Shown here piece by piece: positions 120 through 23,800 of a stretch of DNA of 64,000 bases (the stretch's first letter is position 1; each line of letters starts with the position of its first letter). This DNA is from a virus. A program made the position numbers and the translations under genes. A model generated the notes under the pieces. The model had not been told where the DNA came from, ran no database searches, and worked only from the letters and a program-made list of their open reading frames with translations. The stretch is taken from positions 1-64,000 of IMG/VR virus record IMGVR_UViG_3300008259_000147. One strand, given 5' to 3'.

Positions 120-491
120 TTAATTGTAATGACCATTATTATACCACCTTCTTAGTGTAAGATATTCGCAGCTGTCTAGACCTAATCCTAATGTGTCTAC
201 ACCTAAACTATCTAATGCTACAGGAGGCATTGTTTTTTGGATAAATACTTTCTTATTAAATGTACCACTAATGCAAGTAGCATTTAATTGATCATAATTA
301 TAGAAGTTCCCATTTGGTGAACCTGTGCCATGACAACCACTCCCTGTATTGCAGTGAGCAGTAATAATAGGTTTGATATCTCTCTGATAAGAAATACTAG
401 TAGGTACACAAGCAGGTGCTGCTTTCTCTACCTCAGGTGCATCACTCTTGCAGGCTGCAAAGAATAATGCAATAATTAATAGCTTTTTCAT
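120..491 (-). CDS. Lipoprotein with cytochrome c-like C-x5-C-H motif
   Basis: A 123-residue protein with a lipoprotein signal peptide: MKK, a hydrophobic stretch LLIIALFFAA, and Cys14 as the likely lipidated residue (lipobox F-A-A-C, acceptable but not ideal). The mature part begins with a short linker, then ISYQRDIKPIITAHC. This resembles the start of heme-binding domains in Bacteroidota and Planctomycetes proteins, where 'DI.PI' precedes the Cys-Cys-His motif. Here the motif is C47-x5-C53-H54, a wider spacing than classical CxxCH. A later TMPP segment offers Met88 as a possible sixth ligand, and the C-terminal LRRWYNNGHYN matches the usual ending of such domains. Extra cysteines (28, 73, 108) could form disulphides. 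In a phage this looks like a host-derived envelope moron. Heme binding is inferred, not shown. Confidence 0.65.
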   Translation of the reverse strand: MKKLLIIALFFAACKSDAPEVEKAAPACVPTSISYQRDIKPIITAHCNTGSGCHGTGSPNGNFYNYDQLNATCISGTFNKKVFIQKTMPPVALDSLGVDTLGLGLDSCEYLTLRRWYNNGHYN

Positions 492-512: not shown

Positions 513-767
513 TTAACATTTCCACTTCCTCAAAGACTTGTTAATCCTTGAGTTAGGATCTCTTGCAGTTTTTGCAGAGGTAAGTTTAGCTTTCATACCT
601 TTCATCCTAGCACAGAATGATTTCTTTCTAGGACCACCTTCTGGTTGTGGAGCTTTCAACCCTGGTTTCCCAGGGTTAGCTCTATTGTATGAAGCTCTGC
701 CTTTAGCATTAAGTCCACCTGATGCAGACTTACCCTCTTTTCTTTGCCAAGCTGGTGATTTTGCCAT
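513..767 (-). CDS. Small basic protein, DUF6321-like
   Basis: An 84-residue, strongly basic protein. The N-terminal half carries MAKSPAWQRKEGKSASGGLN followed by AKGRASYNRANPGKPGLKAP, the pattern I know from DUF6321-type small proteins found in many aquatic phages. The C-terminal half (SFCARMKGMK, then DPNSRINKSLRKWKC) is also typical of the longer members. No enzyme motif is visible; the family has no established function, and abundant Lys/Arg suggests nucleic-acid contact or a minor capsid role. The start at 767 is chosen because it begins the conserved MAKSPAWQRKEG motif and is preceded by an AT-rich leader. It lies between the beta-domain fusion gene and the lipoprotein gene, with gaps of 15 and 21 bases. 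Confidence 0.75.
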   Translation of the reverse strand: MAKSPAWQRKEGKSASGGLNAKGRASYNRANPGKPGLKAPQPEGGPRKKSFCARMKGMKAKLTSAKTARDPNSRINKSLRKWKC

Positions 768-2048: not shown

Positions 2049-5000
2049 TTATTTCTTTTTCTGATACATTGTTTTAAGTGCTGGTACTGGATCTATAAAG
2101 TCTTGGATATTTTCAAAACCAGTTAATTTATAGAATTGAGCCAATACTTTTGGAGTACCTTTAGGAAACCTAAATGTTTTCTTTTTGTAATATCCTTGCT
2201 CAAATGCATATTCTGAATCAAAACCTTCATAAGCAATGAGATATACTAAATTCTCAAATCCATCTTTAATTTGAATACCTTCATTAAATACTGAAGTAAA
2301 TGTACTAAAGTTCTTTATAAAGTCTTCTCCTTTTCCTATAAATGGAGCATATAACATTGATCTAGATTCATTTGACACCTTAGCTAATACCCTTAAAGCT
2401 TGGCCTTCAGCCCAACTCAATTTTTTAACCTTATCCTTATCATCATCATCATAAACAAGACCTCTACATAATATAAAAACTATTGTCCAAATAAATCCAT
2501 TCATGATTTCTCTTCTTGCTTGAGCAGCTTTGATACGATAGAATTCATTAGTTTCAAGTTTACCTGTCTTTTCAGCAATTATTTCAGGAAGTAGTGAAAG
2601 GAAGCCTTGGCCATAACCTAACTTAAAAAATATATCAGCAACTGCTGTCCACCACCCTCTTTGAACCTGACCACTATTCCAGTTTTTAGGATCACCCATT
2701 CCAAATGAACCTTTAAATCTATTCTCTGCAAATGGAACTAAGTACTTTCTGAAGAAGAAAGCTAATGTACCAATCATACCACTTTCAAACTGGGTTTGAT
2801 TTTGTTTAGCATAGTTACCTTGATGTTGCAAGTATTCCATTCTAGTTTTAGATCTTATAGATTCTAAATCATCAATAGTCATGGCAACATCACTTCTTAT
2901 ACCAGGTATCATTGTACCATTATCTATAAGTGCATCATAAGCACTAATTTGCAATAAGTCTCCATTAGAATCCTTTTTAAACATTGGATTATTAGAAGCA
3001 TCTAATTTTAAAGAGCCATCTGGATTTGTTTCATAAACATTATACTTATGAGCAATTAAATTCTTTAATAAAGTAGTTGTAGAAATTTCAACCTCACCCT
3101 TATCCTGAATTACATATGCTAAATCTCCAATAGCCAAAGCTCTCTTAAGTAATCTTTTCTGTTTAGATTGTCCTGCAAGATCAAGAAGCTTTTCTTGGGA
3201 ATTCATGGAAGTATTAAAATATCTAGATATTTTAGTTGCCATAGATACATCATCTATTTTACCCCAATCAGCAATAATATTCCACATAAATCCATCAGGG
3301 CTATACATTTGTTTTTTAGCCCAAGCCCAATCTTTATAAGTACCCATTCCATACTTTTCACCCTGAGCTGCTAAGAACATCTGAACATTACCCGAAACTA
3401 AGTTACCAAGTTGCATTGCAGGATCAAATGCTAATCTGCTATAACTAATTAGACCTGTAATTTGCTTTAATGTCTTTCTAAGTCTTAATTGATTTTTACT
3501 ATCTATGCCATCATAGTATTGGCCATACACAAATTTGTTTCTTTCGAACTCAAGCATATCAATTACTTTTTGATATTGCTTTCGAACAACTTCATCTTTA
3601 ATTAGATTCATAGATGATTTTAAAAAGTCAACAGATGGAGATAACAACAAGTTAGCTTCTTCCATTGCATCATAGATTTCATATTCTAATCCCCATTTTA
3701 ATATGGCATTGATACCATCTTTAGTTCCTAAACTAGTATCTAATCTGTAATTGTGACTAAATCTAACTCTTTGTTTACCTGAAATACCATATTCATTAGT
3801 TGCTTTTTCAAGTTCAGAACTATTGGCCAAGATGTGTTTGTTAACCCATTCTCTACCTTCTCTTATTGCACCTTCTAATCCATCTTGAGCAATTGTATCA
3901 ACAGCATGTTGTGTAACACCAGGAAAGAAAAATTCTAATTTATTGGCCGACATCCCAACTTGCTTGTTATAGAATTCATCCATAACATATTTGTTATAGA
4001 ATTCAGCAAGTTCTTTATCTTGCATCATTCTCATATATCTAGGATTTACCCACATCGCATCAGATGTCATCTCAAATCTACCTATATCAGCATTATATCT
4101 ATGTCCTTTAGGCATTGCATAATTCCCAGGGCCATATCTTTTTCTTTTGAGGGAAGGGGTATAGTTTGGATTATATGCTTCAGGTTTTAAAGATCTAGTT
4201 CTGTATTTAGAATTAGGTATTCTAATTAATAAACTAGGATTTGTTGGCATAGCCATTGTATTAAATCTTCTAGGTGCTGTTGCAACCTTGCCATTCTTTA
4301 CAATTGTACCTAGTGTATATTTTGAAGTATTATTTCTGTTATACCATTTTTGAAATGCTATATCTTTTATGTTTAGTTGTGCTTGTAACTTAGCTTTTTC
4401 TGCAACATCTGTAGTTTCACCTATTTGTTTATTTATTCTAATGATTTCACTCATGCGTTCATTCAACTCTTTCATATACTCAGGTCTATTTTGAGTTTGA
4501 CGCATTGAATCTAATTCTTTATCAATCTGATTTATTCTTTTTCTTGCAGCTTCACTTGGTTTAACACCTGTAGCTGATGAGTAAATCTCATCTATTGCTT
4601 CTTCTATTTGAGAAAACTGTTCATAATCTTCATCAGACATATACAAAGGATTGAAGATAGGCTTACTACTAAATACACTATTGAATCTGTATTTGTTCAT
4701 CATCTTTCTTCTTTGCTCATATAAGTCATCTAACACTGGATCAGAACTTCCATACAATTCTCTTTTTTCTTCTTCAAGTGCTCTTAAGTCTTCAAGCCAT
4801 GTAGGATCTGCTACTAAATCTGAATTTCGTTCTAAGAATAGTTTATACTCTACACTATCTTCTGAGTAAGTTTTTAAAACTTGTCTTCTAGCATATTCAA
4901 ACTTATCTTCATTTACATGAAAGTCATAGTACATATGCATTTTTTCATATACTGCGGCTATTTCAGGATTCTCTAAGATTGCTTGTTTTTTCAATAATGA

Positions 5001-8000
5001 AATTTCAGATTCTAAATCTTTTATTTCTATCATGTCAGAATCATCAATCAACCAATCTTCATTACTATTTCTAGATTTTATAGTTTGGATTTTAATATTA
5101 ATTGCATCAATTCTATCCTGTATCTCCACAGGTAAAGAAACTTTTAACAGGTACAATTCAGGAATAGTCTCTGTCTCTAAATTATCTACTTCCCACTTAG
5201 CTTGTTCTAGTTTAAGTTTTTTAAGTTTCTCATTTATTTCTTTTAATTGAGCCTTTTTAAAATCCTCACTACCATCTGATTTTTTTATAGTGCTTCTATC
5301 CTCATATAATTTTCGTATTTCATAATCATATTGATCTTGAATTTCTCTACTTTTATAATCATAAGGTGTAAGGAAAGACATAAAATTACGAGACTCACCT
5401 TTCTCAAAATCTGTTTCTGATACCATCTCACTAATTGCAGTATTAAGTGCTTGATAACTACCATACTTACTACTGTATTTTCTAACAAAACTATCAAACT
5501 TTAATTTGGCCATTCTATCAAAAAATCTAATACTTGCATTTTGTGTAGCATTAGATGCATAATATGCCAAAGCACTAATAGCTAATTCAGAATTACCAAG
5601 AGATGCTTTTAACTCATCACCTGACATACCTAATTTAATTGTAGAACCAATATAAAAATCAGACTCTGGATTAGTAAAAGTGTTATCAATGTATAAGTCT
5701 ACAAAGTTTCTATCAAACTTTTTGTTATTTAAAAAATACTTTATTTTATCTAACTTCTTTTGAGCTTCTTCTTTCATGTCACCTGTGATGACCTGTGTTT
5801 TAGCCTTTCTACCAAACATCTTTCTAACCTTACCACCTAAATAAAAAGTAAAGTTTTGAAGTACTGTTGCATCACCTGCAATTATTCTTTCAAGCTTTTT
5901 CATTTCAGGTTCAAAAAGTAATTCCATTTGAGCCATCATTTCTTCAGCAGTTATTTTTGGTGTAGATAAAAGCACTTTCACAAATTGCTCTCTAGCCATT
6001 TCAACATAAACTCCTTGACCAATTAATGCTGAGTCAATTGATTTATTAATCTCTGACATGATATCAGAATCTTCTGTTACATCAGAATTATTAATCAATA
6101 ATGTTTTAAAGAACTCTAAAAAGTTCTTCATGTCTTCTAGCTGATAATATCTATCACCTAATATGTTAATTACTTTTTCTTTTCCTGTAGAAGATGCTGC
6201 TACTTCTTCAGAGTCTTTTCTTAAGTTTGAAATTATTTCTCGCACTTTATCATAAAGACCTTTTAAAATTAATTCTTTAGGCAATTCTTTAAGTACTCCA
6301 TCTTCAATAGTTTGTCTACTAAACCAATCTCTTGCTTCTAAGAAAAGTCTTTTTCTAGCCTCTGCCTCATTTATCTTTGTTTGATCAGCATTATTCTTTT
6401 TAAGATTTGCTATTTCTGAGTTTATTTGACTTAACTGTTTATCTAAATTTTCTTTTAGATTATCAGATATAATCTTTAAAGTATCTTGAGGTATAGATGA
6501 TATGTAATTAATATTTTCTTTCACCTTAGCTTCAAGTTCTTCATCTGTTGTTTCACCAGGAACTTCAATAGATGTAGCAAGTGCTCTTAGTACTTGCTTA
6601 TACATAGGACTTAATTCAGGAAGTGGATTACCATACTCATCTAAATCTAAACTTAATCCTTGATCACCTTCAATATTTACAGCAGCCACATGCATATCTT
6701 CATATACCCACATGTCATCCATGTTTTGAAACTTTGCATTAGGTGAATAAATAATATTTATGATTTTATTATCCTTAGTGGTTATACCAATCCTCTTTAG
6801 TAATCTTTCATATACTCCAATCTGAGATAAGAAAATACTTGCTTTACTTCTTCCAGAAAATCTTTCAAATGCTGGATGAACACCATCTTCTAATGCTGTA
6901 GTATATCTTTCTTTAAAGATTGCCAAATGAGAATAGTTCTTCATTGGAAACTTAGCTCTAGTAGTCTTATAATCTCCAATAGAAGCTGTGCCATCTTTTC
7001 TAATAATTAGATAATCCAATCTACCCACGATAGCTCTACCCATTGAATCATATTCAAATATTGTAATCTCTGGAATAACTATATCACCTTTTGTAAAAGG
7101 ATCATTGATAATACCTACAATGTTTACTAAATGATCTGACAATACTTCTTCTCTAATTTTAGGTAACATTTTACTACCCTTTTCATTTAGGCCAGGAAGC
7201 TCAAGCATATCTAAATTCTTTTCATAAAAATCATGAAAATAATCAGGATTATTATTTAGTATCTGCAATGGAGTATATCCAAATTCTAAAGAATCAATAG
7301 TGATGTGATATAAAAAGTCATGAACAAATGTTCCAAAATTTGCAAACTTGTCAAATCTTTTTGCAAGTTTTTCATCATGCAGCGGACTACCTACAAACTT
7401 AGTTACAGATACTGTTTTAACATCATCTTCTATTAATTGTCTATAATCTCTAATGTTTTTTAAAAGTATTTCTACAGTAGTAACAATATTAGCTTTTGCA
7501 GGATCTTTCTTTAATTTTTTTAATAGATTTTCTAATCTCTTTATCTCATTAGCATTGTTCTCTAGCTTTTTTTCTTTTGTTGTTTTGCCTTCTTCTTTAG
7601 CTTGTTTCTCTACAGCCTCTTCTTCATTGTAATCATCTGACTTTGAAATTAAGTTAAATCTTGGTTCTATTACTTCGGCTCCTGATAAGACAATATTAGT
7701 ATCATCTAAAAATACAGCTACTTCTCCTATTGTAGAATTCAAGGGAAGTTGATCCATAGCATCTAACTGGAAACCAAATGTGTCATTTAAAAGATTCTTT
7801 AACCACTTTATAAATTGCTTAACAGATGTAGCAAAAGAACTAGCTGATGTTTCTTTTTCTTCTTGGACTCTCATATAAGAATCCTTTATAGCCCTAGTAA
7901 CTAACTCAATATCTCTAGCCTGTTGATTGAATCCTCTCTCATTAGTGTATTCACTTTCAATTTGAACAGCTAAACCAGGGTATTCTTTTAATGCCTGATT

Positions 8001-8852
8001 TCTTAATCCAATAAATAAAGTTTTTCTTTCAGTGACTAGTTTATCTACAAACAAATGCATTAATTCTTCTAATGCTATAGAAGTATTTACCTTACCTCTA
8101 ACTAAAAACACTTGGTTCTTAATTGTAACAGCATTAACTGTAACACCATTAGATATTAAAACTTTAGGATTAGCTCTAAGAATTTCTTGCATTTCATCTT
8201 CAGTAACCCAATTTACTTTAGCACCCTTAAATTTCTTTAATAGAGGGGCTATTGTATTTTGAACAACTAATTGATCAACTATATTTTTAACTTGCGCAGT
8301 TTCCATTGGAACATCAGGAGTTAAAATTTCTGTAGATCTTGATGGCTTATTGTGCAATGCTATTTTATACCTCTGTTCTCCATTAATAACCCTAGATTTA
8401 AAAGGTGTAGCTTCTAAATTAGGGTAACTCATGCTTAAACCAATTTTAAATTTACTTACCTCTTCCGAAGTAAGTTCAATAGACTGAGTAAAAGAAGCAC
8501 CAACATTGTTATCAGAAGGAATTAAATACTTATTTGTTAATTGTAGTGGAGTTAATGTAGAATCATTAGTGTAATCTGTTTGATACATTCTATTTTCAGG
8601 GTAATAGATTCCATGCAAAGCATCTATTTCACTAAACGTATTAGCAGAAAACACTACATTGTCATCAGTCATTGCAGCATAATCTACAATAGGTCTAGCA
8701 ATTCCAAATTGTTCTTTTAATCTATTCTTGAGTCTATTATCTGTTTCTTTTAAAGTATTCATATCCAATACTTTACCAGAAGCATCAATGGCTTTATCTT
8801 TTTCAAATTGATTAACTAGTGCTCTTCTAGCACCTACGCTACATATTTTCAT
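2049..8852 (-). CDS. Giant internal virion protein with RecB-like nuclease domain
   Basis: A 2267-residue protein starting MKIC, as does the polymerase giant just upstream (gap 11 bases). Residues ~230-350 hold a zincin-like module in which HExxH is degenerate (E262-E-L-M-H266), followed by an amphipathic helix around 340. Residues ~490-640 contain a PD-(D/E)xK (RecB/Cas4-like) signature: acidic E595/E600, then G-R-L-D613, then G-D627-Y-K629-T-T. A long Lys/Glu-rich region with coiled-coil character spans ~780-1500. The C-terminal third looks like a structural ejection protein, with one strong hydrophobic helix near 2117-2133 (GFIWTIVFILCRGLVY) followed by an Asp run. Its place at the end of the giant cargo genes suggests it is packaged and injected. 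The nuclease might act on host DNA or on the incoming genome; that is inference. Confidence 0.75.
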   Translation of the reverse strand: MKICSVGARRALVNQFEKDKAIDASGKVLDMNTLKETDNRLKNRLKEQFGIARPIVDYAAMTDDNVVFSANTFSEIDALHGIYYPENRMYQTDYTNDSTLTPLQLTNKYLIPSDNNVGASFTQSIELTSEEVSKFKIGLSMSYPNLEATPFKSRVINGEQRYKIALHNKPSRSTEILTPDVPMETAQVKNIVDQLVVQNTIAPLLKKFKGAKVNWVTEDEMQEILRANPKVLISNGVTVNAVTIKNQVFLVRGKVNTSIALEELMHLFVDKLVTERKTLFIGLRNQALKEYPGLAVQIESEYTNERGFNQQARDIELVTRAIKDSYMRVQEEKETSASSFATSVKQFIKWLKNLLNDTFGFQLDAMDQLPLNSTIGEVAVFLDDTNIVLSGAEVIEPRFNLISKSDDYNEEEAVEKQAKEEGKTTKEKKLENNANEIKRLENLLKKLKKDPAKANIVTTVEILLKNIRDYRQLIEDDVKTVSVTKFVGSPLHDEKLAKRFDKFANFGTFVHDFLYHITIDSLEFGYTPLQILNNNPDYFHDFYEKNLDMLELPGLNEKGSKMLPKIREEVLSDHLVNIVGIINDPFTKGDIVIPEITIFEYDSMGRAIVGRLDYLIIRKDGTASIGDYKTTRAKFPMKNYSHLAIFKERYTTALEDGVHPAFERFSGRSKASIFLSQIGVYERLLKRIGITTKDNKIINIIYSPNAKFQNMDDMWVYEDMHVAAVNIEGDQGLSLDLDEYGNPLPELSPMYKQVLRALATSIEVPGETTDEELEAKVKENINYISSIPQDTLKIISDNLKENLDKQLSQINSEIANLKKNNADQTKINEAEARKRLFLEARDWFSRQTIEDGVLKELPKELILKGLYDKVREIISNLRKDSEEVAASSTGKEKVINILGDRYYQLEDMKNFLEFFKTLLINNSDVTEDSDIMSEINKSIDSALIGQGVYVEMAREQFVKVLLSTPKITAEEMMAQMELLFEPEMKKLERIIAGDATVLQNFTFYLGGKVRKMFGRKAKTQVITGDMKEEAQKKLDKIKYFLNNKKFDRNFVDLYIDNTFTNPESDFYIGSTIKLGMSGDELKASLGNSELAISALAYYASNATQNASIRFFDRMAKLKFDSFVRKYSSKYGSYQALNTAISEMVSETDFEKGESRNFMSFLTPYDYKSREIQDQYDYEIRKLYEDRSTIKKSDGSEDFKKAQLKEINEKLKKLKLEQAKWEVDNLETETIPELYLLKVSLPVEIQDRIDAINIKIQTIKSRNSNEDWLIDDSDMIEIKDLESEISLLKKQAILENPEIAAVYEKMHMYYDFHVNEDKFEYARRQVLKTYSEDSVEYKLFLERNSDLVADPTWLEDLRALEEEKRELYGSSDPVLDDLYEQRRKMMNKYRFNSVFSSKPIFNPLYMSDEDYEQFSQIEEAIDEIYSSATGVKPSEAARKRINQIDKELDSMRQTQNRPEYMKELNERMSEIIRINKQIGETTDVAEKAKLQAQLNIKDIAFQKWYNRNNTSKYTLGTIVKNGKVATAPRRFNTMAMPTNPSLLIRIPNSKYRTRSLKPEAYNPNYTPSLKRKRYGPGNYAMPKGHRYNADIGRFEMTSDAMWVNPRYMRMMQDKELAEFYNKYVMDEFYNKQVGMSANKLEFFFPGVTQHAVDTIAQDGLEGAIREGREWVNKHILANSSELEKATNEYGISGKQRVRFSHNYRLDTSLGTKDGINAILKWGLEYEIYDAMEEANLLLSPSVDFLKSSMNLIKDEVVRKQYQKVIDMLEFERNKFVYGQYYDGIDSKNQLRLRKTLKQITGLISYSRLAFDPAMQLGNLVSGNVQMFLAAQGEKYGMGTYKDWAWAKKQMYSPDGFMWNIIADWGKIDDVSMATKISRYFNTSMNSQEKLLDLAGQSKQKRLLKRALAIGDLAYVIQDKGEVEISTTTLLKNLIAHKYNVYETNPDGSLKLDASNNPMFKKDSNGDLLQISAYDALIDNGTMIPGIRSDVAMTIDDLESIRSKTRMEYLQHQGNYAKQNQTQFESGMIGTLAFFFRKYLVPFAENRFKGSFGMGDPKNWNSGQVQRGWWTAVADIFFKLGYGQGFLSLLPEIIAEKTGKLETNEFYRIKAAQARREIMNGFIWTIVFILCRGLVYDDDDKDKVKKLSWAEGQALRVLAKVSNESRSMLYAPFIGKGEDFIKNFSTFTSVFNEGIQIKDGFENLVYLIAYEGFDSEYAFEQGYYKKKTFRFPKGTPKVLAQFYKLTGFENIQDFIDPVPALKTMYQKKK

Positions 8853-8863
8853 TTTAGTTTATT

Positions 8864-11800
8864 TTAACAGAATGGGTCATTATCTTCTGACAATTGTTCA
8901 CTTTGTGTTTGTTTATTAGCAGCTTCTAAAGCATATAACAAAGGAGTGCTATAGTTGTAGTTAGACAAATCTACTAAATATCCACCTTCTCCACCTCTAA
9001 TTCCTGGAATAATTGGTTGCCAAACAAGCTTTATACCTGGAATTCTAGTCATAGCATTATATATAGCACCTGTTTCAATAGGTCTATCATTTGATATATT
9101 AAATATTTGATTTATAACCCTATTTGCAGCATGCTTATCTGTTTTTCTAAAAGCTGCTAAAGCCTTAATTCCTTTTTCAATTTCAGATTGTGGTACTTTG
9201 TCTTCACCTATTTTAACAATATATCTTGGAATTAAATCAAGTTCTAAAGCAGCTTCATATTTAATGTAATCAGCTTCTTCTTTTGTAAAAGCTACTTCAT
9301 CTTTTCCTGCATATATCAGAGCTGTACTTTTACTTCCTTGAGTAAGATTAGTAATGTTATAACCACTGAAATACATAGGCATAGCTTTACCATGATTCTT
9401 TATATGTTTTTGTATGGTATAGTGAACTAAAGGAGCAAAATATTTAAGTTCTAACTCAATTGTATCAGCTATAACTTCATCTTCTGGAAATGATTGATTT
9501 CTAAGTTTTTCAGTTTCCTCTTTTATTGCTTCATATTTTTTAAGTAACTCTTCTTTTGCAAATCCTTTTTCATTTTCACTTAATGTAGGAGTTTTAGATT
9601 GTAACTCTACTTCTCTCAATGCAACATTAGTTTCTAATAATCTTTGATTATATTGCATATTTTCAAATATTTTAACAAGTTGCTCTTGAGAAATATTTTG
9701 AAATGGTGTAAGAGAATTGAATTTAGTTAAAACTTTTTGAGAAGATATAAGTGATTTTTTTTCTAGAAATGCACTTTTAGCTTGATTTTCTAAAGATCTA
9801 TTTAGTGCATTAGCCAACAGTACTTTCATGTTTGTTTGTACTTTAGTACCTTCTGTTCTAGGTTTAATTCCTGCACGAACAAATCCAGCAATACTCCTAG
9901 CGTCTGTAGCTAGATCTACACCATATTTAGAACCAACTAGCTCTTTAATTAAATCATTTAATCTAGAGTTAAGAATAATTGAATCTGCCTCATCTTTAGG
10001 AATAACTACATCATCAATTCCCATATCTAACAATTGATCAGCATTATATGGTCTTTTATTTATTTGTTCTAACTGAAAAGTTAAGTCTATAAGCAATTGT
10101 CTACCCTCCTCACTTTCGTTTAATAATGCAAAAAAACCACCTTTATTTTTTATATCATTTAATATCAATTTTCTAGTATAGTAGTTATCTAATTTTTTTC
10201 TAATTTGAATCATATCGTATAAAATATCTTCAATACGAGGTAAAAGATTAATTTGCTCATCAATTTTTTCTAAGAAAATTTCATGTTTACGCTTGCTTGG
10301 AAGTCTATCTTGCGAATATAAATCATAAAGAATTGTATTAAGTGTTGTCGCATTTCCTAATAAAGCTTTTTTTCTTATATCTTCTACAAAAGGGTTAACA
10401 CTCACTTCTTTTAGTTTTCCTGATTCTATACGTTTAATCCTATCATCTGTATTTTTTGCTAAATCTTTTAGATAGTCATTTATCGCATCTTGTAAACCTT
10501 TTTTAGTATTTTTTTGTAGTTTTAATAATTCTTCAATATTATCATTTTGTATTTCATGTAATAATACAGCATCTTTAAATTTAGAATTACCTGTATAAAA
10601 ATATGTAAGATTGGCCCAAGCAGAAGGAGATAGATGAAAATGTGATCCTTGTCCATAACTTGTATGAAATGTATCATTAAATCTTAGTGATATTTTATTA
10701 TGCTTGACAGAACCCGTACCTCCATTAACTCCTAATATTCTAGCAACTCTCATTCTTTCTTGAGGAGGTAATGCCATTATCTGGTCCTCAGTCATATTAT
10801 TTACATCATACCCTATTTCTTCTAGTTCTTCCTGAATATCATCAGCTGGATCATAAGAATTTTTATTTCTAGGATTAATTGAAAATGTTTGATCAATTCT
10901 ATAATCTAAATAATTTTGTTCATTTGCAAAACCCAATGCATAATTAAATTCTAAGAAGTTATGAATTTCATTAACTAACTCTTCTGCTGTTATTGATCTT
11001 TTATTTGGATTTTCTTTTGCTATTGCATTTTTTATAGCTTCAATCATAGCAGACTCTTCTTTCTTAAGACCATCTACTTTAAGAGTTTCTGTTAAAGAAA
11101 TAGGAATACCTTTTATTTTGTTTTCCAATCTTGTTAACTCAGCATCATATTGTTCATTAGAAATTTCTTTTTTTAAATTTTTTTTAACTAATTCCACTTT
11201 TTGATCTATAGTTTCAGGAGAATCTTTTCTACCATACTTTTCAAGTATTAATGGTAATACTTTAAGAGTTGGTGTAATTTTTTCATAGCCGTTATTAGAG
11301 ATTAAGTTTTTTAATTGACTATCTGTTAATTTTTTTGTAAGTGCTGGCACAGCACTTTTTTTATAATCAAAACTCTCAATTAAATCCTCATCTAGTTTTA
11401 TTTCATCAATAGTTAAAAAACTATCAATTGTTTTTGATAAGTATCTAGTTCTTTTTTTATACCTATCATTTATTAACTTATCTATAAATTTTCTATCATC
11501 TTTTACTTCTTCTAGTTTTCTACTATGATTATCAACCATTTCTGGAAAAGTAGTTAATAACCAATTAAGCAGCTCACCTCCAAAATCAAAAGCAGTAGTT
11601 TCAATATAGTGCTCTCTCCAACTTTCCGCCATAGCTTTTTCAATCAACCCTTCTATTGCTTTTCTAGTTAGTCTACCTCTATTCCTCTCAAAATAATCTC
11701 CACCCGCTTGACTATACATACTAACATTAGGAAAAATATTATAAAGCTGTTCATCATCAAATCTTCTCAAAGCAGATTCTAATAATTTTTTACTATTTCT

Positions 11801-14800
11801 AACATTGAAACTAAAAACCACCTCATCTATATCAGTAATTTTATTTGCAAGAGTACCATATTGCTTAAGATCATCAAATTTTATATCTTCAAACGATGCT
11901 TCTGTTATTTTATCTGCAAAATAAATATAGTCATGTATTTTTGCATACTCCTTCATGGTCATTAAATCTGACATATCTGAAGTTAAAATTTTCATTGCAG
12001 CCACTTCAAATGGATCTTGCGTACTAGCAAAATATCCTGTAAAAGTTTTTAAAACTTTATTAATCCACTCAACAAATGCTTTAAGGAAAGAATAATCTTC
12101 AGGAGCTCCATTTTTTTCTTCTATTTTTTTAATTGCTTCTCCAATTAATTGACCAATAGATTCTTCAGTAAGAGCATCAATAATTGATGCATTATCAGAC
12201 ATTACAGACTCATACTCTTCTCCATATTGATTTTTCAATAGTACTTCTAATCTTTCACCTGTTTTTGCAGATTTCCACAACAAATCTTTTAATGGAGAAT
12301 TTGTCTTTAATAATCTATACCACCAGTGAGCTGCCTCCTCTGGCATCTTATTCCATGCGGCAGGTCTTTTATTAATGTCATCAATAATATCTACAGTACC
12401 TTTTACAAAGTTAGCAGCTGCCAATGCACCTTGGACAACAGAACCATCTTGTCTTAAAAACTCAGGAACTAATCTTTGTTGCACTCCTACAGTTTCTAAG
12501 AATTGAGAAACTGTATTTAAAGTGTTTATGTGAAACTCTATTGTATTATCGTTTTCACTATCTAATCCGAATAACTTTTCTTCTGAAGATCCAGGATCTT
12601 CTTTTCTAACCTCACCACTAATTGTTTCTGGTGCATAAGGTATTAACCAATACTCGCTAATTGATTTAGAGTTTAACCAAGTATTGAATGTAGTATCCTT
12701 AGTTGCTTCTTCATAAGAACTAAATCCTAATTTATTTGCAAACTCATTTAATTGTTGTTCATTCATAGACTTACCTTCCATGAATGCTTTACCATTTCTA
12801 GCAGAGTATCTTACACCTACAGAACTTATATTTAAGATTTGATTACCAGAAACATATCTAGCACCAGATATTTGAGTAAGTAGAGTTTTAGAATCTACTC
12901 TTAAGTTTGTAGTTCCTTGAACTACTTTAACATCACTAGGTAATGATTGAACAATATTTGAACTAGGTGCATTTACATTTGATGTACTATCTACAAGCTT
13001 TTTAATTTCTGTAGCAACATCATTTCTAAATGCATTAGGTGATATTCTATCAGCACCTTGTCTATCTACCACTACATACTTTGCTGTAGTACCTCTTAAT
13101 AAGAATTGGAATTCATCTGTACTCTTATATGAATCAAATAGATTTGCAAAGAACTCAGTTGTAAAAGGTTTACCATCTAATTCTGTAAGTAGGAATACTT
13201 GGTCCCCATTAAAGTTGTTTATCTGATATAATGGGAAAGAGTAATTACCATCTCTAGTTTGATAGATACCCTGAGGTAATAATAATCTATTTACCACATC
13301 TCTGTTTGTATCTGTGATGCCAGATAGGTCAAACATCAATTCATTATTACTATCTGCTTTCCAAAGTTCAAATCTTGTATTACTTCCCTTAAGACCTCTT
13401 TTAGTATTTATCCCAGCATTTACAGGAAGTATTTTTCTAATACCTTTTGGATTAGTTCTTACAGTGTAAATAAAGTCTTTGTTTTTTGGTAGAATGGTAT
13501 CTACAATACTCTTAAGTAATGTTAAAGAAATATCAGAATATTTACCTGGCAAGTACTTATCACTACCTGGATAAAAACTTAATCTAAGTGCTCCATTACC
13601 AATAGATTGTTTAGTTAATGTTGAAACAAGTTTTCTTAGAATAGAGTTTGTATAAGTAGCAGCTGTGTCTTTAGATATAGAAGGTAATGAATATATCTCT
13701 TTAAACACATCATTTAAGCCTTTTATGTATTTAGCAGATGTCATACCTTTTTGAGTATCCAACTTATACAACTTGTCTTGGATTATATCCAATCTCTTAC
13801 TCATGTGAATGAATAAATCAGGTGCAATTATCTTTAAGAATCCTTCATTTCTAGATATACCACCATCTTTTACAATACCATGAACAGCAACATTTACTGC
13901 CATTTTATAAACAGACTCATCAGAATCAGTTAGTAATTGATAGAAATCATTAATAACTCTATTTTGATTTTCTGATGATAATTTACCACCTAGTAATGAT
14001 GTAATTACTTTTGTCTTTCCTTTACCTGAAACTAATGCAGGCTTTATTGTCAAAGACTTTAGAAATTCATTCTTAGGAAACTTGCGCTTTAAAATATTTA
14101 AATCCTTTTCAATTTTATTATTTTGCCAATAAGAAATACTTGTGGCATCATGAATTGCTTTAACAAATACATCTTCTTGAGACATGTTGTTTTCATCAAT
14201 ATTGTCAATCCTTGATTGAACATATGCATTTAATGATGATAATCCAAGAATTGATTTCAACTCAAGAACTACATCTTCTATGTTTACTGATTTATCGTAT
14301 CTAAATAATGAAGTAAATGCTTTGAACAAATTAGTTTCATCTAACAACACTTCTTTTGATCTAGTTGACATTTCAGTAATACCATCCTTTGCAAGTTTTT
14401 CTAAGTAAGGATGTTGTTTAAAGATATCAGGTGCATTTTCAAAAATCTCATTGTTCTCTATAAAATCAACTGCATCTTTAATTCCAGATAATGTTCTAAA
14501 TGAAGGTCTTAATTTTTTAATTACATGAGCAAGCTTTCCAATCTTAAATGAAATAGCATTTCCAACTTTTAAAAACTCATTGTAAAATGACATTAATACA
14601 ATACTACCAAGCTCACCTGCAATAATTTCTCCTTTATTATTCTTAATAGTAATGTTAAAATTATCTAAAGTATTTCCTTCTACACCTGATTCAACATCAT
14701 TAAACTCTATCGTAATATTACTATGATCAATTTCAAATTTATTGATTTTGTTTTTAGATGGTTTTAATACTCCAAACTTTTCAAATGCTGTTTTATTAGC

Positions 14801-17800
14801 ATTTACTAATGATAGAGTTTTGTTATTTAAGAATACAGAGAATCCCATTCTAAATGAAATACTTCTAGAATAACTAGGGTCATCATTCAAGCTATATTCT
14901 TTAATGGCAGATGCAATTAAATCTACAGAGTTAATTAATCTAGCAAACTGAGAAGGATATCCATAAATGTATAACGCACCTACAACACCTGCATTAATTT
15001 TAGAAATTTTTAATGGTGCTAAACTTTGATGCTTAGCGTCATCTAATGAAACATCTGTTGCACCTCCCATCTTTTGAACAGACTCATCTATAGGCTTATT
15101 AGTTTCAATAGCCTTACCATTATGTACAAACTTAAATGTAAAAGCTTTTGAGAGTTTTACATTTGATGATCCAATTAAAGCTGCTGATTTTACTTGATTT
15201 GCATTAGCTGAAACTGAATCTAGTGTTCCATTATTAACAGATCTAATTCGACCTACTGTTTGAAACTGGTATGGATCAGATTTATCAATTCCTTTAAAAT
15301 CTGAAATAGAATCAACTATTTTTCTATCTGCTTTGTATTCATTAATTGCTTTTTCACCATCTGCATTTTTTATGTAAGTTTCATATACATCAGGGTTTCC
15401 TAATAACTCCATCTTCTCTAGTAAGATTTCATTATGCAATCTTGAGTGAACAGGATTACCTTCTTTTTTAGTAAATGCCTCAAGTGCATCAGGTGTAGAT
15501 GGTAGATTATAGTTGTTTATTACATTAACAACTGCAATCAATCTATCCATCAACTTAAGGATATTACCTAAACTCTTGTTAGATGATACAACATTAGCAC
15601 CCATTAACTGACCTAAAGACTCTAGGCCTGTTCCTTTCTTTTTGTTCTTATCATTTGTAGTTTGAATAGATAATGTTACACTCTTTCCTTTTGATAATTC
15701 TTTAAATACATCAGGAGATAATAAGTTTAACACATAGTCTTCAGTACCAGAAAAGAATTCGCGGACTTCATCTCCAAATAATCCAACAGCATTTGCTAAT
15801 GATCTAGTTTTAAATTCTTGATCAGAATTAATTCTGTCTTGCTCGCTATCTACAAGATCTGCAAAAACAGGATCAGTTGCCATGTAATGTAAATACTCAA
15901 GAAACTCAGCATTCTTTTTACTAAGTCCTAGTTTAGTATATCCACTATAGTCCCCATACTTAACTAACTTACCTAATGTATTTCTATAATAATCATATGT
16001 CTCTGCATACAATGCATCAATATCTAAGTCAGATCCAGCCCAGAAGTGAACTTGAGAAGGTACTATGATAGAGTTACCATAAGTAGCATCTATATAGTCA
16101 ACTACTTTAGCTCTAACCATAGATCTTTTATCAGCTGTTGGAATACGAGCTGCTAAGAAATCAGTGTAAAGTTTTTCAAAAAATTCTACTTCTTCTTTTG
16201 TAGAAGCTAATTCACGAGGAATAATTACTTCTACTACATAATCTATTAGCTTACCATTCTCATCATATGTTTCTTTTACAGTAGGGTATCTTCTTTTATA
16301 TCCTGCATATCGTTCAGGATTTGCATCTAATTCTTTTCTAGGAACAGGCTTATCATTTTCATCTACAATTAATTGATAACCTGCCACTGAAACATGGTAG
16401 AACTTTTTACCTGCTACTTTAGGACCAAATATTGAATTGTTAAATAAACTGAAAAAATAAAACATTGGTTGTTTACCTAAAATAGATAAATTCAAATTAA
16501 ATTTATTTTTATTGTTGGTATCCAGTGAGTAAAACTTTAATAAGTTTTCTCCAGCACCTTGTTTCATTAACCCAGCTTGAATTGCTTTAGTAACTAAAGT
16601 CTTAGGGTCATCAGTTTTAAATACTCTTTCTAATAACTGTAATCTTGATTTTACAATTTCTAATTGCAAATCAAGTATCTTTTTAGCACCTGGAAACTTC
16701 TTATGATCTAACTGAGCAGGTAATATCAGTTTCTTCTGAATACTATCTGTTGTTTTTTTAGAAATACCTGCAGTAGAAACTTGCTCATATACTAAATCAT
16801 TTGGTATAGCATGAGCATTATATTCTAAGTTAATGTAACCATCTTTATTAATTACAGGTTTAACACTATCATTAAATGTCATCTCACCATGCCCTTCTAG
16901 AATATTATTTTCTAATAGGTTCATGTTAATGATTAATGGTTGTACAGTTCCTTTTTTAGATACAGTGTCATCAAATGCTACATCTACTCTAAAGTATTCA
17001 AGAGCATTTAATAAGTGATGATTAAAAGCTCTACCTAATTTTGGTTTAAAATAGCTATGGATTTCTTTAATGATTTCTCTATGTCTAGCTAATGCATCAT
17101 CAGTGTATGTAGGATTGTCCATCTCTAATGCATCTAATTCCTCATATAATTCTGCAACACGATCTGGATCTGATACAAAGCTATTATCACTTCTATTAAT
17201 GTAATGCTCTGAATCTTTATAATAAAAGTAAGGGTGTCCCACGGCTGGTTTATCAGAACCTAAAAATATACCATTGTCATTAAGCTGTATAATTTCATCA
17301 GTACTTAATGTAGTGTATCTTAGCTTTTTAAGCATTGCTTCTAATTCAGGCGAAAGAATACCATCTTTTCTAAACTTTTTAATTCTTCTATCTATTCCAC
17401 TCCAACCTTGACCATCTGCTATTTTCATTTCTCTATCTCCACCCATTTCTTCATCAGTGGTAAGAGGTATTCCTGGATTATTAGAATCTAAAAATGCAGA
17501 AAGACCTTTGAATACTGCAAATACACTATTGTCATTGGCTTCTAGAATATTAATATTTCTATAGTTGTTACCTGCAATTACACCTGACTTTTGACGCTTA
17601 AAGAAGTTTATAACATTGTCAACACCAACAGCTAAATCCCCATCAAAAAGTTGGTTCATTTCTAAAGAGTTAAACCAAAAGTTATATCCAAAGTCTTCTA
17701 TAAAAAGATCTTTTAAAGGAGCTGTTTTATCTTGACTGTAATAAAATTTTTCTTCTATTTCTCCACTCTCTTTTCTTTCAACTACCTTATCATATTTAGC

Positions 17801-20800
17801 TAAAGAAGTGAATTCACCATTTACTCTAAATCCACTAGGAATATCATCTAATTGAATATCAATTGATTTAAAATATTGTGCAAGCTCTGCTATTTGATCT
17901 TCAGCATAGTCAAATAATAATTCAGATAAAACCTCATCTACTGTATAGTCATAAGGATTATTATTAGCATCATAATATGTTTGTGATAAGATGTCTTCAA
18001 ATGCTGTACCTGCAATTGCTGCATTTTTTAATATGCTATGGATATTACTTAAGCTGTCATTTTCTTCTCCAGCATAAGAAACTTCATAATCTCTTTCAAA
18101 AAATCCTTTTAATCTATTAAAGTTGTAAGCTCTTAATGTAAGATCTGATGATGTAACATTACGATCTTTAGTTGTTCTGCAATTATAATTTTCATATCTT
18201 ATTTTAACTGCATCTCTTGTAGACCACTCATTAGCAATTCTATTATACTCTTGTTTAATGATTTGTTTTAATTTACTCTTAACTTTTCTTGCACGAGTTT
18301 TCTTATTAGTATAATCATCATACAAACTAGTCATGTTAAACTGAGTACTAGTTGCTTCTAACTGAGTAATAGGTTTTTCAAACATGATAATCTCTTGACC
18401 ATAATTACCTGTTACAGAAAATCTATTAGCAAATAAACCTAATACACTTAATGCATACCCTTTATCACCTAAAGCTTTGTAAGTACTTTGTCTTCTATTG
18501 CCTTTACCAAACTCTTGGAACATCCCCCCAGCAACACTAATGTCAAAATTCTCAAAGAAGATACGAGCTGTATCTTGATCTATTGCAAATTGACTTTTAT
18601 CATTTGGATTAAATGTAGTATTATTTATTATGGCAGCTAATGTTGGATTGTCTTCAAAGAATTTAGTATCACCATAATACTTTAGTAAAGTAGCTGCTAG
18701 GCCTTTCCATCTAACTTCATTTAAAATTTGTACAGAAGGAACATAAGGAATAGATTGATTAATAGGTTTGTTATCCTGATTTAAAATAGTATTGCTGACT
18801 AATGAAGGATCATACTTGATAGCAAAAGGAACAATACTTTCATACTCAGACATAAAACTATTAACTGCACTAGTTTTAATAGCATCTGTTTTATTAAGAG
18901 AATTTAATATTGTGTTATACTTATCTATGAAATCCTGAATATTAAAATAATTTCCAGCATTTAAAAACTTTTTATTTTGAGCAAGTATAGGATCAACAAA
19001 AGTAGCTTTTTCTTTATAGTTCTCTTTAACAGAAGCAGCTACTGCAAACTCAATTACATTTCTAGGTATGTTTAGATTAGCATAAGATGTAATTGTATAT
19101 AACCTGTTTACAGTATAATCAAATGTTTCTTGATTAGTTGGTATAACATAATTATAGTTTTGAACTAAACTTTTAAGTTTTGCATATACTGGTAAATTAG
19201 ATTCTAATTTAAATGATTCAAGTCCAATTTCTAAATTAGTTCTAAGCTTATCTAATACTACTTTAGTGTTATATCGCTGTATTAAACTATTAACTCTAAA
19301 ACTATTTTTAACAGGAGACCTGTCAAAATTTTCTCTTTCATCTGTAGATACTTCTTCATAATTAGTATTTATACTAATAGCAGATATGTTTTTGTTTGCT
19401 CTATAAAACACATTAACAAACATGTTATAGAAAGGCATACCCAAAGATCTAGTTGGTAAAAAGTTATGCAATGATGCTTGTTCATCTAGTGTTTCATATA
19501 CAGCCTTTAGAGTGTTATAATCATCAATTGTTTGAATCATGTCTTCACGGATGTAGCCTAATTCACTAGCTAATCCTGATTCATTGAAGTTATCAATATT
19601 ACTTTTTAAATATTGGATATGAGTGTAGATAGCTTCAATTATATTCTCTTTTGGAGTATTATAAGTAATCTTTCTTATTTGATTAATTACATCACGGCTA
19701 TTTACCATTTTATCAAATGCCACTCCTAGTCTTTCATCAACAAAAGTATACTTGATATACTTGATTAACTTTTGAAATTCAATACTTCCCTCATATGGCT
19801 TATAAGTAAGAATACCTCCATCCTCAAAATTCTCTCCCATTTCATCCTCATCACTCCTATCAAAATATGAATCATCTTCATTTTCATCAGACTCATCTCT
19901 TTCTGTTTGATCTTCTTCAGATGTTTTATCTTTAATAACTCCTACACTTCCAAATGATTTTTGCACTAGCTGTTTAACTTCTTCATATGTCTTATATGAA
20001 AAAGCATTAGAGCCATCTATATCTAAGAATGAATAACCATTAAGATCTAAATCATCAGTTAGGTTGTCTAATATAAAGTCTTCATTAACATCTGTTCTAT
20101 GTGCAGCTCCCATCATGAATCTCATGTTTCTAAACATGGGCTCATATGTAGCAATTATTTCAGCAGAGTTTGGATTATCATCTGTAATAAAGTTGTTGAT
20201 GTTAAAATAGTTGATTAAATCTCTAGTTATTTCATCATATACTTGATTAAAACTTTCCTGATTTCCTTTGACAATGTCACCAGATCTTTTAAGCATCTCT
20301 CTAGTAATTCTGTCAACTAACTGATCTGTAGTATAGTTGTCAACTTGCTTATAATCCATTTGAACATTGTCCCCAACTTTGATAAGCGAAGTAGGGATAC
20401 TAGATAACGCATAAGCCCTAGGTGCAGCATACTTATCACCAATTACATCAGCATATTCTCCTTTATCAATCTTACCATATAAGTCATTAATTGAATTTTT
20501 AGCATCTCTGTATCCACGGCTCTTAAATAAATTAATAAAACCATCTAATAAAGAATAAAGCATTTTAATTAATGCATTCTTAGGTTCTGACTTATTTAAT
20601 TTATAATCTCTAAATCCATCTGCTAAATATTCTTCATAGATATAATCTACAATGATGTTATCTTCAACTCCTGCAAAATTTCTTTTCTTTCTAAATTCAT
20701 CCAAGTATACTTTTTCAGAACCAACTTGAAGATACTTACCAATAGAATCTGTTTTATAACTACCTAAGATAGTTTTAGCTGCTTCTAAGTATCTAAGTCT

Positions 20801-23800
20801 TTCTTCAGTTGTCAATGCTAATCTGAATACAGCATGAAATGCTTCATGATATATAACTCCACTTATAGGAAGAAGTTTGTTTAATGTGATTACATTATCT
20901 TCAATATAACCTAAAACAAAAGCAGACTCAACTTTATCAGCAATTATAGTAGGATCAATCTTAACAGATGATCCTAACATTCTTTTTACATCATCAATTT
21001 GTTTTTGAATTTCTTTACTTGCAACAAATGATAAACCATTTAAAGAAGTAACTAAACTATTAGCTCTATCAGATCTATCAGGTCTAATGCCTATCTTTCT
21101 AATAGAAGCTGGTTTTTTTTCTTCAGTCTTAACAGGAGTAGCTACTGTAGTTGTTTTAACTGTTGCAGCAGTTCCTAATGAAGGTTTTGCTGGTGTAATA
21201 ATAAGCTCTCTTAAACTATTCTCTAAGTTATGCTCAAACACTTTATAGTTTAATAAAGGATTTGTAGATTTTTGTCTAGATGCTAATTTAAATTCTAAAG
21301 TATTAAGATTTCTAAATAACAAATACTTAATGTCCTTAGGATTTACTAAAGTTTTATTTTCTGGGTTTTTATCAGCCTTCTTAGATTCTTTTTCTATAAG
21401 GTTGTTTAAACTTGTATTTAGATTACTAATAGTGTTTTTAAATTCATTTTCAATCTCTGCTAGTACTTTCTTAGCAGTAGGAGTTAACAAATGTTTATTG
21501 TCTTCTATTTTAGCCTGAAGAATGTTTCCAAATCTCAACATGTTTTCTACAGAAGAAGAATATTCTTTAGGATTAATATTCAACTCTCTGTAAAGAATGT
21601 TTAATTGCTTTTGTATATCATAGTAATCAAAACTAAATTCAATAGACAAATTAGCTTTGTTAAGATTTTCTGCATATGCATAATCACCCGATGCTCTAAA
21701 TCTAACACCAAACACAGGCTCATCATTCCAAATTCTTAAGAAATCAATATTTGCAGAAATACCTTTGTATGCATTAAAACCCCATCCTCTATTATTAAAA
21801 GTTCTAATCAACTGATTTAAAGCATCCGCAGTTTCTTCTGAAAACTCTGGCCTAAAAGTTTGCAATGCACCTAATGTAGATAAAAAGTTTACAACCTCTG
21901 ATACTTCTGTAACAGGAGCAGCTCTATACATTGGCTTTAGAATCCACTCATTATTCTTAGTCCTTAATAAATAAAAATCATTGTATTTAGAGTTAACTGT
22001 ATTCTTTAAAAGATCTGCAATTTTAGATTTAGATAAATTTTCCTTTTCAAATACTTTCTCATAAGAAAGTTCTTCATTGTTTTCATCAATGATTGTGTAT
22101 CCTTGTTCAATTGAAGGTTCAAAAATAAATCCTAGTAGTGCATCCTTTTTAACAATACCAATGATGTTTTCTTCTCTTATGCTACTAGGTATAGCTTTCC
22201 CAGCAGACATTTGAGCTATTCTTACTGGTACTAAAGAATTAGTTGCCACTAAGTTTTCTTTAAACTTATCTAAAGTCTGAACAGGTTTGTATAAACCATT
22301 TTGTTCTTTTACAAAATCTGTAGAAGAAAATACATTAGATATGTCAAAGTATTTAGAAAACATTTGATGAGGAATTTGTAAAACAGTATCTTCATCCATC
22401 ATTTCTAAGATTTCAGATTTCATTTCTTTTATCTTAGCTACAATGTTTTTTATATTTTCTATTTCTGCATCTGTAGGCATTTCATAAGTATATGCTTGAG
22501 CAGGGTTTTCATCAGGACCTTTTTGTACGTATTCTTCATATTTTTTAATACGTGTTGCTTCTTTGAAAATCTTTAAATCTTCATTGTTTGTCCAATCAAT
22601 AAATCTAATTGTGCCATCAGGATAAACAAATCCTAAAGTATCTAATGACATTAGGTAATCCCAGTTCTGATCATCCTTAGAAGATATGATTATATCTAAA
22701 CCAGCTCTTGGCATTAGGTTAGTTACAACAGGAGCTGCATTAGGGTTTGAAGCTAAGTAACTAAATTGAGTAGGTGTTAATCCAGTTTCAAAATCAATAG
22801 GATAACCTTGCTCATTTAATAAAGCAACTCTAGCTCTATTTGCTAAAATTCTTCTTCTATCAGCAATGATTTTAATTTGATTTGCTAGACCTACACCTAA
22901 TGATAAACTATCTGATATTTTTTGATTACCTGTTCTATTATCTGAAGGAGTTTCTGATTGGATGCCTTGTTCATAAATTCTAACATCTTCAAACCCAACT
23001 CCATTTTTAGCAAGGTTTGCATTCAATCTATATTGACTTCCTGAAGAGTTTGTAATTTCTAAATTATCTTGACCATACACAGGAGTAATATAATCAGTTG
23101 GCTCTACAGTGTATAATGTTAATTCACTTTCATTTTCTCCAGTATACTCAGGGCTATAAACAAAGTATTGATCATTCTTGAATACAAGAAGTTTTATCTG
23201 ACCATCTTTCTTTCTAACATATTGCATTTCTCCAAGTGAAGGAATGGCTCTAACATTAATTAGTTTTGATGCACTTTCTTCTATTTCAGATAACTCAGCT
23301 TTCTTCTGATCAATTAATGCTCTTAATGAAGTAGCAGAAGTATTCTTTACTTTAGATATAGCTTCTAAAAACTTATTGTATGCATTAATCTTAGCAGAGT
23401 TATCATACAATGCATCTTTATTTATAACATCTTCAAACTCTGCAAACAAATCATTTAATGTAGCATCAGATGCTTTTGTAAGCTTTGTAAAAATGTTATT
23501 TAATTTCTGAGCAGTTGTTAAAGGTTTTTTTGTTTCTTCTTTCTTAGCTGTAGTACCTGTACCTAAAAATCCTCTCTCTTGCCACAATCTGTCATCTCTT
23601 TCTTGTTCTCTTAAGTCTTCTAGTCTTTCTCTTTTAGGACCAGCTGCAGAAAGATCTGTCAATGCTGCTTCTTTAAGTTCATTATTTACTTTTGATATTT
23701 CGCCTGCTGTAGTAAGTTTTTCTCCTTTTACTTCAGGCTTACCTTCTGCAGCTAGTTCTGAAAAATATTTATTGGTAAAAATAACTTTAGATTGATCTAT

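Follow-up and report, generated by a model that had tools for sequence, protein, structure and literature searches.

The locus analyzed here raises the question of whether a phage carries a cytochrome of its own and what such a protein would do in an infected cell. It is located in IMGVR_UViG_3300008259_000147, the record of a virus that infects freshwater bacteria and a linear fragment of 78,655 bases (78.7 kb), of which positions 1 to 64,000 are referred to here as the window. An ORF of 123 amino acids was identified on the minus strand, with the start codon ATG at 491 and the stop codon TAA at 120 (Table 1). A preliminary description of this DNA had named a lipobox, the sequence DIKPII, the pattern C47-x5-C53-H54, a TMPP and a C-terminal L(R)RW..NG pattern, all five of which were found in the ORF; it left the strand unstated and overlooked a second conserved pair of cysteines, C28 and C108. 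Most likely, the gene codes for a working c-type cytochrome of the phage, which would be tethered to the envelope, where it would manage the flow of electrons in the course of infection.

Table 1. Features of the cytochrome locus in the window (positions of the window; all on the minus strand)
Feature	Position	Strand	Evidence
Downstream phage gene (MAKDKKWIQKA...), truncated by the contig end	1..102	minus	counterparts in 12 related viral contigs, fetched through their capsid gene, are 55-61% identical
Predicted c-type cytochrome lipoprotein gene, 123 aa	120..491	minus	ORF; matched by two host-only profiles (E = 1.2e-15 and E = 2.5e-13); groups with the five other phage copies in a single clade
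C-terminal W116..NG120 motif (L113-R-R-W116-Y-N-N-G120)	132..146	minus	W116 and G120 invariant in 47 members
Cys108	168..170	minus	invariant in all six phage copies
Loop after MPP (residues 91-103), exceeding that of the other phage copies in length	183..221	minus	alignment A4
MPP (within T87-M-P-P90), Met88 being the likely distal haem ligand	222..230	minus	M88 and P89 invariant; aligned to MP of cytochrome c6
Haem-attachment motif C47-x5-C53-H54 (C47-NTGSG-C53-H54)	330..353	minus	C47, C53 and H54 invariant in 47 members, spacing 2-7
DIKPII helix (D38-I-K-P-I-I43) before the haem motif	363..380	minus	identical or near-identical in phage copies; model helix 35-47
Cys28, proposed disulphide partner of Cys108	408..410	minus	at least 90% conserved; pairing putative
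Signal peptide and lipobox, Cys14 being the lipidated residue	450..491	minus	MKKLLIIALFFAAC in the sequence; all 47 aligned members have Cys14
Upstream phage gene, DUF6321 family	513..767	minus	Pfam E = 6.5e-19, PHROG E = 8.8e-39; 596 viral contig stretches

Homology to cytochrome c lipoproteins of Bacteroidota

Searches with the single protein gave no match in IMG/VR, in the GTDB genomes or in phage records, and no PHROG family was found for it. Among 50,697 annotated phage records there was no convincing match, with weak matches (E = 0.2) in two records of the same size only. Relatives were therefore recovered via degenerate DNA patterns of the motif. The preliminary description had proposed to look for host homologues, and the motif pattern led to 18 genome loci, 15 of which encode Bacteroidota lipoproteins sharing the size and layout of the window protein. 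A C-x5-C-H match in L179 was rejected as a chance frame of 27 amino acids.

A profile of the CX5CH host proteins matched the window protein with 57.4 bits, whereas the best of 20,000 composition-preserving shuffles reached 11.4 bits. Since this first host set had been selected by its motif, 25 host domains with spacings other than C-x5-C-H were used for a second profile. Here, the window protein (E = 2.5e-13) was the sole significant match among 15,399 viral open frames, the next one having an E-value of 0.29; chance does not account for the pattern. The signal is concentrated in the segment from DIKPII to CxnCH, as residues 57-123 taken by themselves do not outscore shuffles. Against solved cytochrome c6 chains, the combined profile A2 gave E = 4.5e-6 with the CXnCH and MP sites in register, and the deeper profile A5 gave weaker matches (8e-4 for cytochrome c6), nearly all of them to cytochromes c. 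The host-only profiles and the match to cytochrome c6 bear out the earlier reading as a Bacteroidota-type cytochrome c-like lipoprotein.

The predicted model of the window protein, made with 47 sequences, has a pLDDT of 83 and helices at residues 35-47, 66-75, 77-84, and 107-118, which are those expected of a cytochrome c. A Foldseek search of the model against the PDB returned nothing significant, the single match being a cytochrome c (E = 6.1, TM 0.30). An earlier model with a pLDDT of 69 matched no fold, and a structure search among viral models gave no match. Judged from its sequence, the window protein falls into an extensive family of cytochrome c lipoproteins from Bacteroidota, and by descent and ligand residues it is very probably a c-type cytochrome.

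Haem linker and conserved cysteines

The residues C14, C47, C53, H54, M88, P89, W116, and G120 are invariant across the 47 aligned sequences. The lipobox reads FAA-C14. In Capnocytophaga, the surface-lipoprotein export signal is C-X-K-(D/E)2-X (PMC5080379). No exact match to it was found in the window protein, which has an acidic C-K-S-D-A at this site, and such signals vary by genus; the relative in L244 shows C-K-H-K-D-E, which is shifted by one and likewise no exact match.

The wide C-x5-C spacing had been taken earlier as a hint that haem is not bound. This part of the preliminary description found no support, as host relatives from a single conserved family of operons use linkers from CX2CH to CX7CH yet keep Met-Pro, Trp and Gly, and five phage copies have CXXCH. 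In 61 aligned rows, including some near copies, the linker has two (10 rows), three (3), four (22), five (19), six (3) or seven residues (4), and Met-Pro is kept in every row. Due to this retention across linkers of 2-7 residues, a wide spacing is normal among these proteins and does not speak against haem. Genes with CX2CH, CX4CH, and CX5CH are found in one operon type with YceI and DUF5777, and one of them also adjoins a CX7CH gene. Haem is probably attached to the window protein. Wherever a row has no second upstream cysteine, its C-terminal one is missing too, and this joint loss suggests a disulphide between C28 and C108, which probably forms in the window protein.

Relatives in other phages

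Scanning viral contigs for a CXXCH pattern revealed intact relatives in L244, L259, L262, and L272, and a profile scan added a fifth one in L278. All five have CXXCH, MPP and an ending of the form C-x7-W..NGH. A copy on contig L256/L281 was left out because it is broken by frameshifts, like many genes of that contig; many further CXXCH matches (L240-L276) in large multi-domain proteins, which are possible bacterial contamination, were not counted. Loss of Cys-Cys-His in phage homologues that keep the rest had been named beforehand as the finding that would speak against a cytochrome, and every phage homologue retains these residues.

The phages of L244, L259, and L262 are close relatives (terminases 96-99% identical), and the L244 terminase is 34% identical to that of Cellulophaga phage phi14:2. 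The terminase and portal of the L278 phage belong to the same PHROG families; the portal of L272 differs. In the tree, which rests on few columns and is unsure in its deeper forks, the window protein and the five other phage copies form one clade (support 100/95), with the host proteins of L298 and L316 placed nearest, though weakly (93/48). A single phage clade makes an old phage family more likely than repeated recent captures. The dN/dS values between phage copies (0.15-0.60) indicate purifying selection. More distant cytochrome c-like genes lie outside the phage clade at L252:6796-7143 (175-kb contig) and L273:2408-2686 (74-kb contig).

Genomic context

The gene is located 120 bases from the record end and at the end of the virion module. 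It is separated by 17 bases from the downstream phage gene, and both flanking genes lie on its strand. Carriage by a phage, within the virion module and downstream of the giant genes, was thus read correctly in the preliminary description: phage genes are present on both sides, and the giants encode 2,267 (2049-8852) and 5,242 amino acids (8864-24592). For the 2,267-residue giant, only distant relatives (about 30% identity) were found, in nine related records.

In the nearest capsid relative G001 (92%), the order of the flanking genes is identical with a different gene of 67 amino acids at the cytochrome position, and the cytochrome is absent throughout G001. Since the closest capsid relative lacks it, the gene is dispensable, and its phage flanks together with this absence indicate an accessory gene of the phage. 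As a host-type gene amid phage genes and variable among relatives, it corresponds to an auxiliary metabolic gene or moron.

The major capsid protein (L002:11073-12698) has hundreds of relatives among viral contigs; its more distant matches are to a Leptolyngbya phage, Cellulophaga phages and crAss-like phages. For the portal fragment of the record, the matching portal family is phrog_6547, and the portal of the crAss-like L244 phage has a match in this family too. The record is distantly related to crAss-like phages. Among named phages, the capsid protein is best matched by Leptolyngbya phage Lbo-JY46 (28% over 99%), which infects a cyanobacterium. No Shine-Dalgarno site was found in the 35 genes checked, as is expected for a phage of Bacteroidota. 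Despite this absence, the host is uncertain, because among named isolates a cyanobacterial phage gives the best capsid match. A ferritin gene lies in the structural module on the minus strand (L002:7571-8167, record position 71571-72167; Pfam E = 6.1e-22), and ferritins above the cut-off were also found in G001, G011, G015, G031, G039, G040, and G065.

A partner protein and the host operon

In L244, L259, and L262, the cytochrome gene is followed by a gene for a protein of 403-414 amino acids that contains CATSGCH as well as a choice-of-anchor V domain (84 bits against a cut-off of 42). The L278 phage has its choice-of-anchor V gene 23 kb from the cytochrome, among tail genes and 82% identical to that of L244. 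This identity stands against terminases of the same phages without BLAST-detectable similarity. The phage proteins (L244:5204-6415, L323:12783-13964) carry FN3-like domains and are strongly constrained (dN/dS of about 0.1, high dS). No choice-of-anchor V protein occurs in 11 related long phage records without the cytochrome, and none was found in the record of the window, a linear fragment.

At the host loci L298, L302, and L316, a CX4CH choice-of-anchor V protein adjoins the cytochrome ahead of YceI and DUF5777, and two of these three proteins have a T9SS sorting domain above the cut-off. The Bacteroidota operon (L228, L231, L232, L236, L289-L303, L316) comprises a tRNA_anti-like OB protein, a diheme cytochrome, the monohaem cytochrome lipoprotein, YceI and a DUF5777 beta-barrel, with choice-of-anchor V as an occasional member. 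It looks like a trans-outer-membrane redox system. The literature search found no paper on DUF5777, the marker of this operon.

Proposed function and alternatives

The best explanation, which we hold with moderate confidence, is a phage-borne monohaem class I c-type cytochrome lipoprotein that would serve as an electron carrier during infection; electron transfer, assigned from the family, is likewise a somewhat probable role. The protein would be expressed late, from the operon of virion genes, and the host machinery would secrete it, add lipid to Cys14 and attach haem to Cys47 and Cys53, with His54 and Met88 as axial ligands. Placed in the host envelope, it could act as a one-electron carrier that keeps or redirects outer-membrane electron flow during virion assembly, to the presumed benefit of the phage. 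In some related phages, it might cooperate with the second CXnCH protein, the choice-of-anchor V type found in the same host operon.

The main rival is superinfection exclusion or receptor masking, in which the cytochrome fold would serve a lipoprotein of the envelope that keeps other phages out, in the manner of Llp of phage T5, with haem perhaps for stability only. It would fit a lipoprotein with moron-like presence and absence among relatives, a gene at the edge of the virion module and a long branch in the tree. However, both haem cysteines, the histidine and the methionine are retained in every phage copy, even in divergent ones, none of which a pure blocker needs, and the association with a second CXnCH protein also speaks against this unlikely alternative. 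Ferritin genes in the record of the window and in the L278 phage could point to haem or iron handling, in which the protein, alongside the phage ferritin, would take up or store haem or iron on behalf of the infected cell instead of carrying electrons. But ferritin is common in related records that have no cytochrome, and the idea that both genes travel together was therefore dropped; moreover, the motif suits covalent haem with a methionine ligand and not exchangeable haem, and this role is improbable.

To about the same degree, it is improbable that the protein is packaged in or attached to the particle, with the late operon reflecting a structural role: small basic genes of the virion module flank the cytochrome in the window and in L278, whose partner gene sits within the tail genes, but the N-terminal lipoprotein signal directs the protein to the envelope. 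An accessory function in lysis, as an outer-membrane lipoprotein acting like a spanin partner, is suggested by L272, where the cytochrome comes after a short gene that is holin-like by eye. It is very improbable, as other relatives have separate lipoproteins that appear spanin-like by eye, and the conserved haem and disulphide cysteines would be useless there. Least credible is an assembly artefact fusing a host gene to the end of a phage contig; the gene does lie near the contig end, but a phage gene follows on the same strand after the short gap, the sequence clusters with phage copies and not with hosts, and five other contigs hold relatives amid phage genes.

Returning to the electron carrier, relatives in at least five other viral sequences suggest that these viruses bring their own electron-transfer piece into infected cells. 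A more far-reaching and doubtful idea is that a minimal kit for electron transfer across the envelope, consisting of the haem lipoprotein and a secreted CX4CH protein, has passed from a host outer-membrane redox operon to crAss-like and related phages of freshwater Bacteroidota. Such a kit would tune the respiration of the infected cell or let it discharge electrons outside.

Comparison with known systems

A literature search on c-type cytochromes in crAss-like phages found no paper; lipid-anchored electron carriers with covalent haem would be a new class of cargo for crAss-like and related phages. The family also opens a way to study the uncharacterised host operon in which the cytochrome lies with YceI and DUF5777, and the linkers from CX2CH to CX7CH form a natural set for asking how cytochrome c maturation tolerates spacing.

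The cytochrome lipoproteins of this host operon (for instance, L290, L298, L316, and L188) resemble the window protein in the lipobox, the second cysteine, DI.PII, C-xn-C-H, MP and Trp..Gly, and members with CX5CH and CX7CH exist among them. In contrast, the phage copies form their own clade with an NGH ending. Neither YceI nor DUF5777 was seen beside the phage copies, and the neighbours of the window protein are phage genes. Cytochrome c6 and PccH (PDB 3dmi, 4rlr) are alike at the profile level only, with haem and methionine sites matched for c6 and the haem segment alone for PccH; their aligned sequences have CXXCH, unlike the C-x5-C-H of the window.

Among phage envelope proteins, Llp of phage T5 is a lipoprotein for superinfection exclusion, which is encoded outside the core gene set and blocks other phages. 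The window protein is likewise a phage-encoded envelope lipoprotein outside the core genes; Llp is not known to have a haem motif. Small electron carriers brought by phages are represented by the plastocyanin and ferredoxin of cyanophages. Compared with these, the carrier proposed here would need covalent haem and would be lipid-anchored in the envelope.
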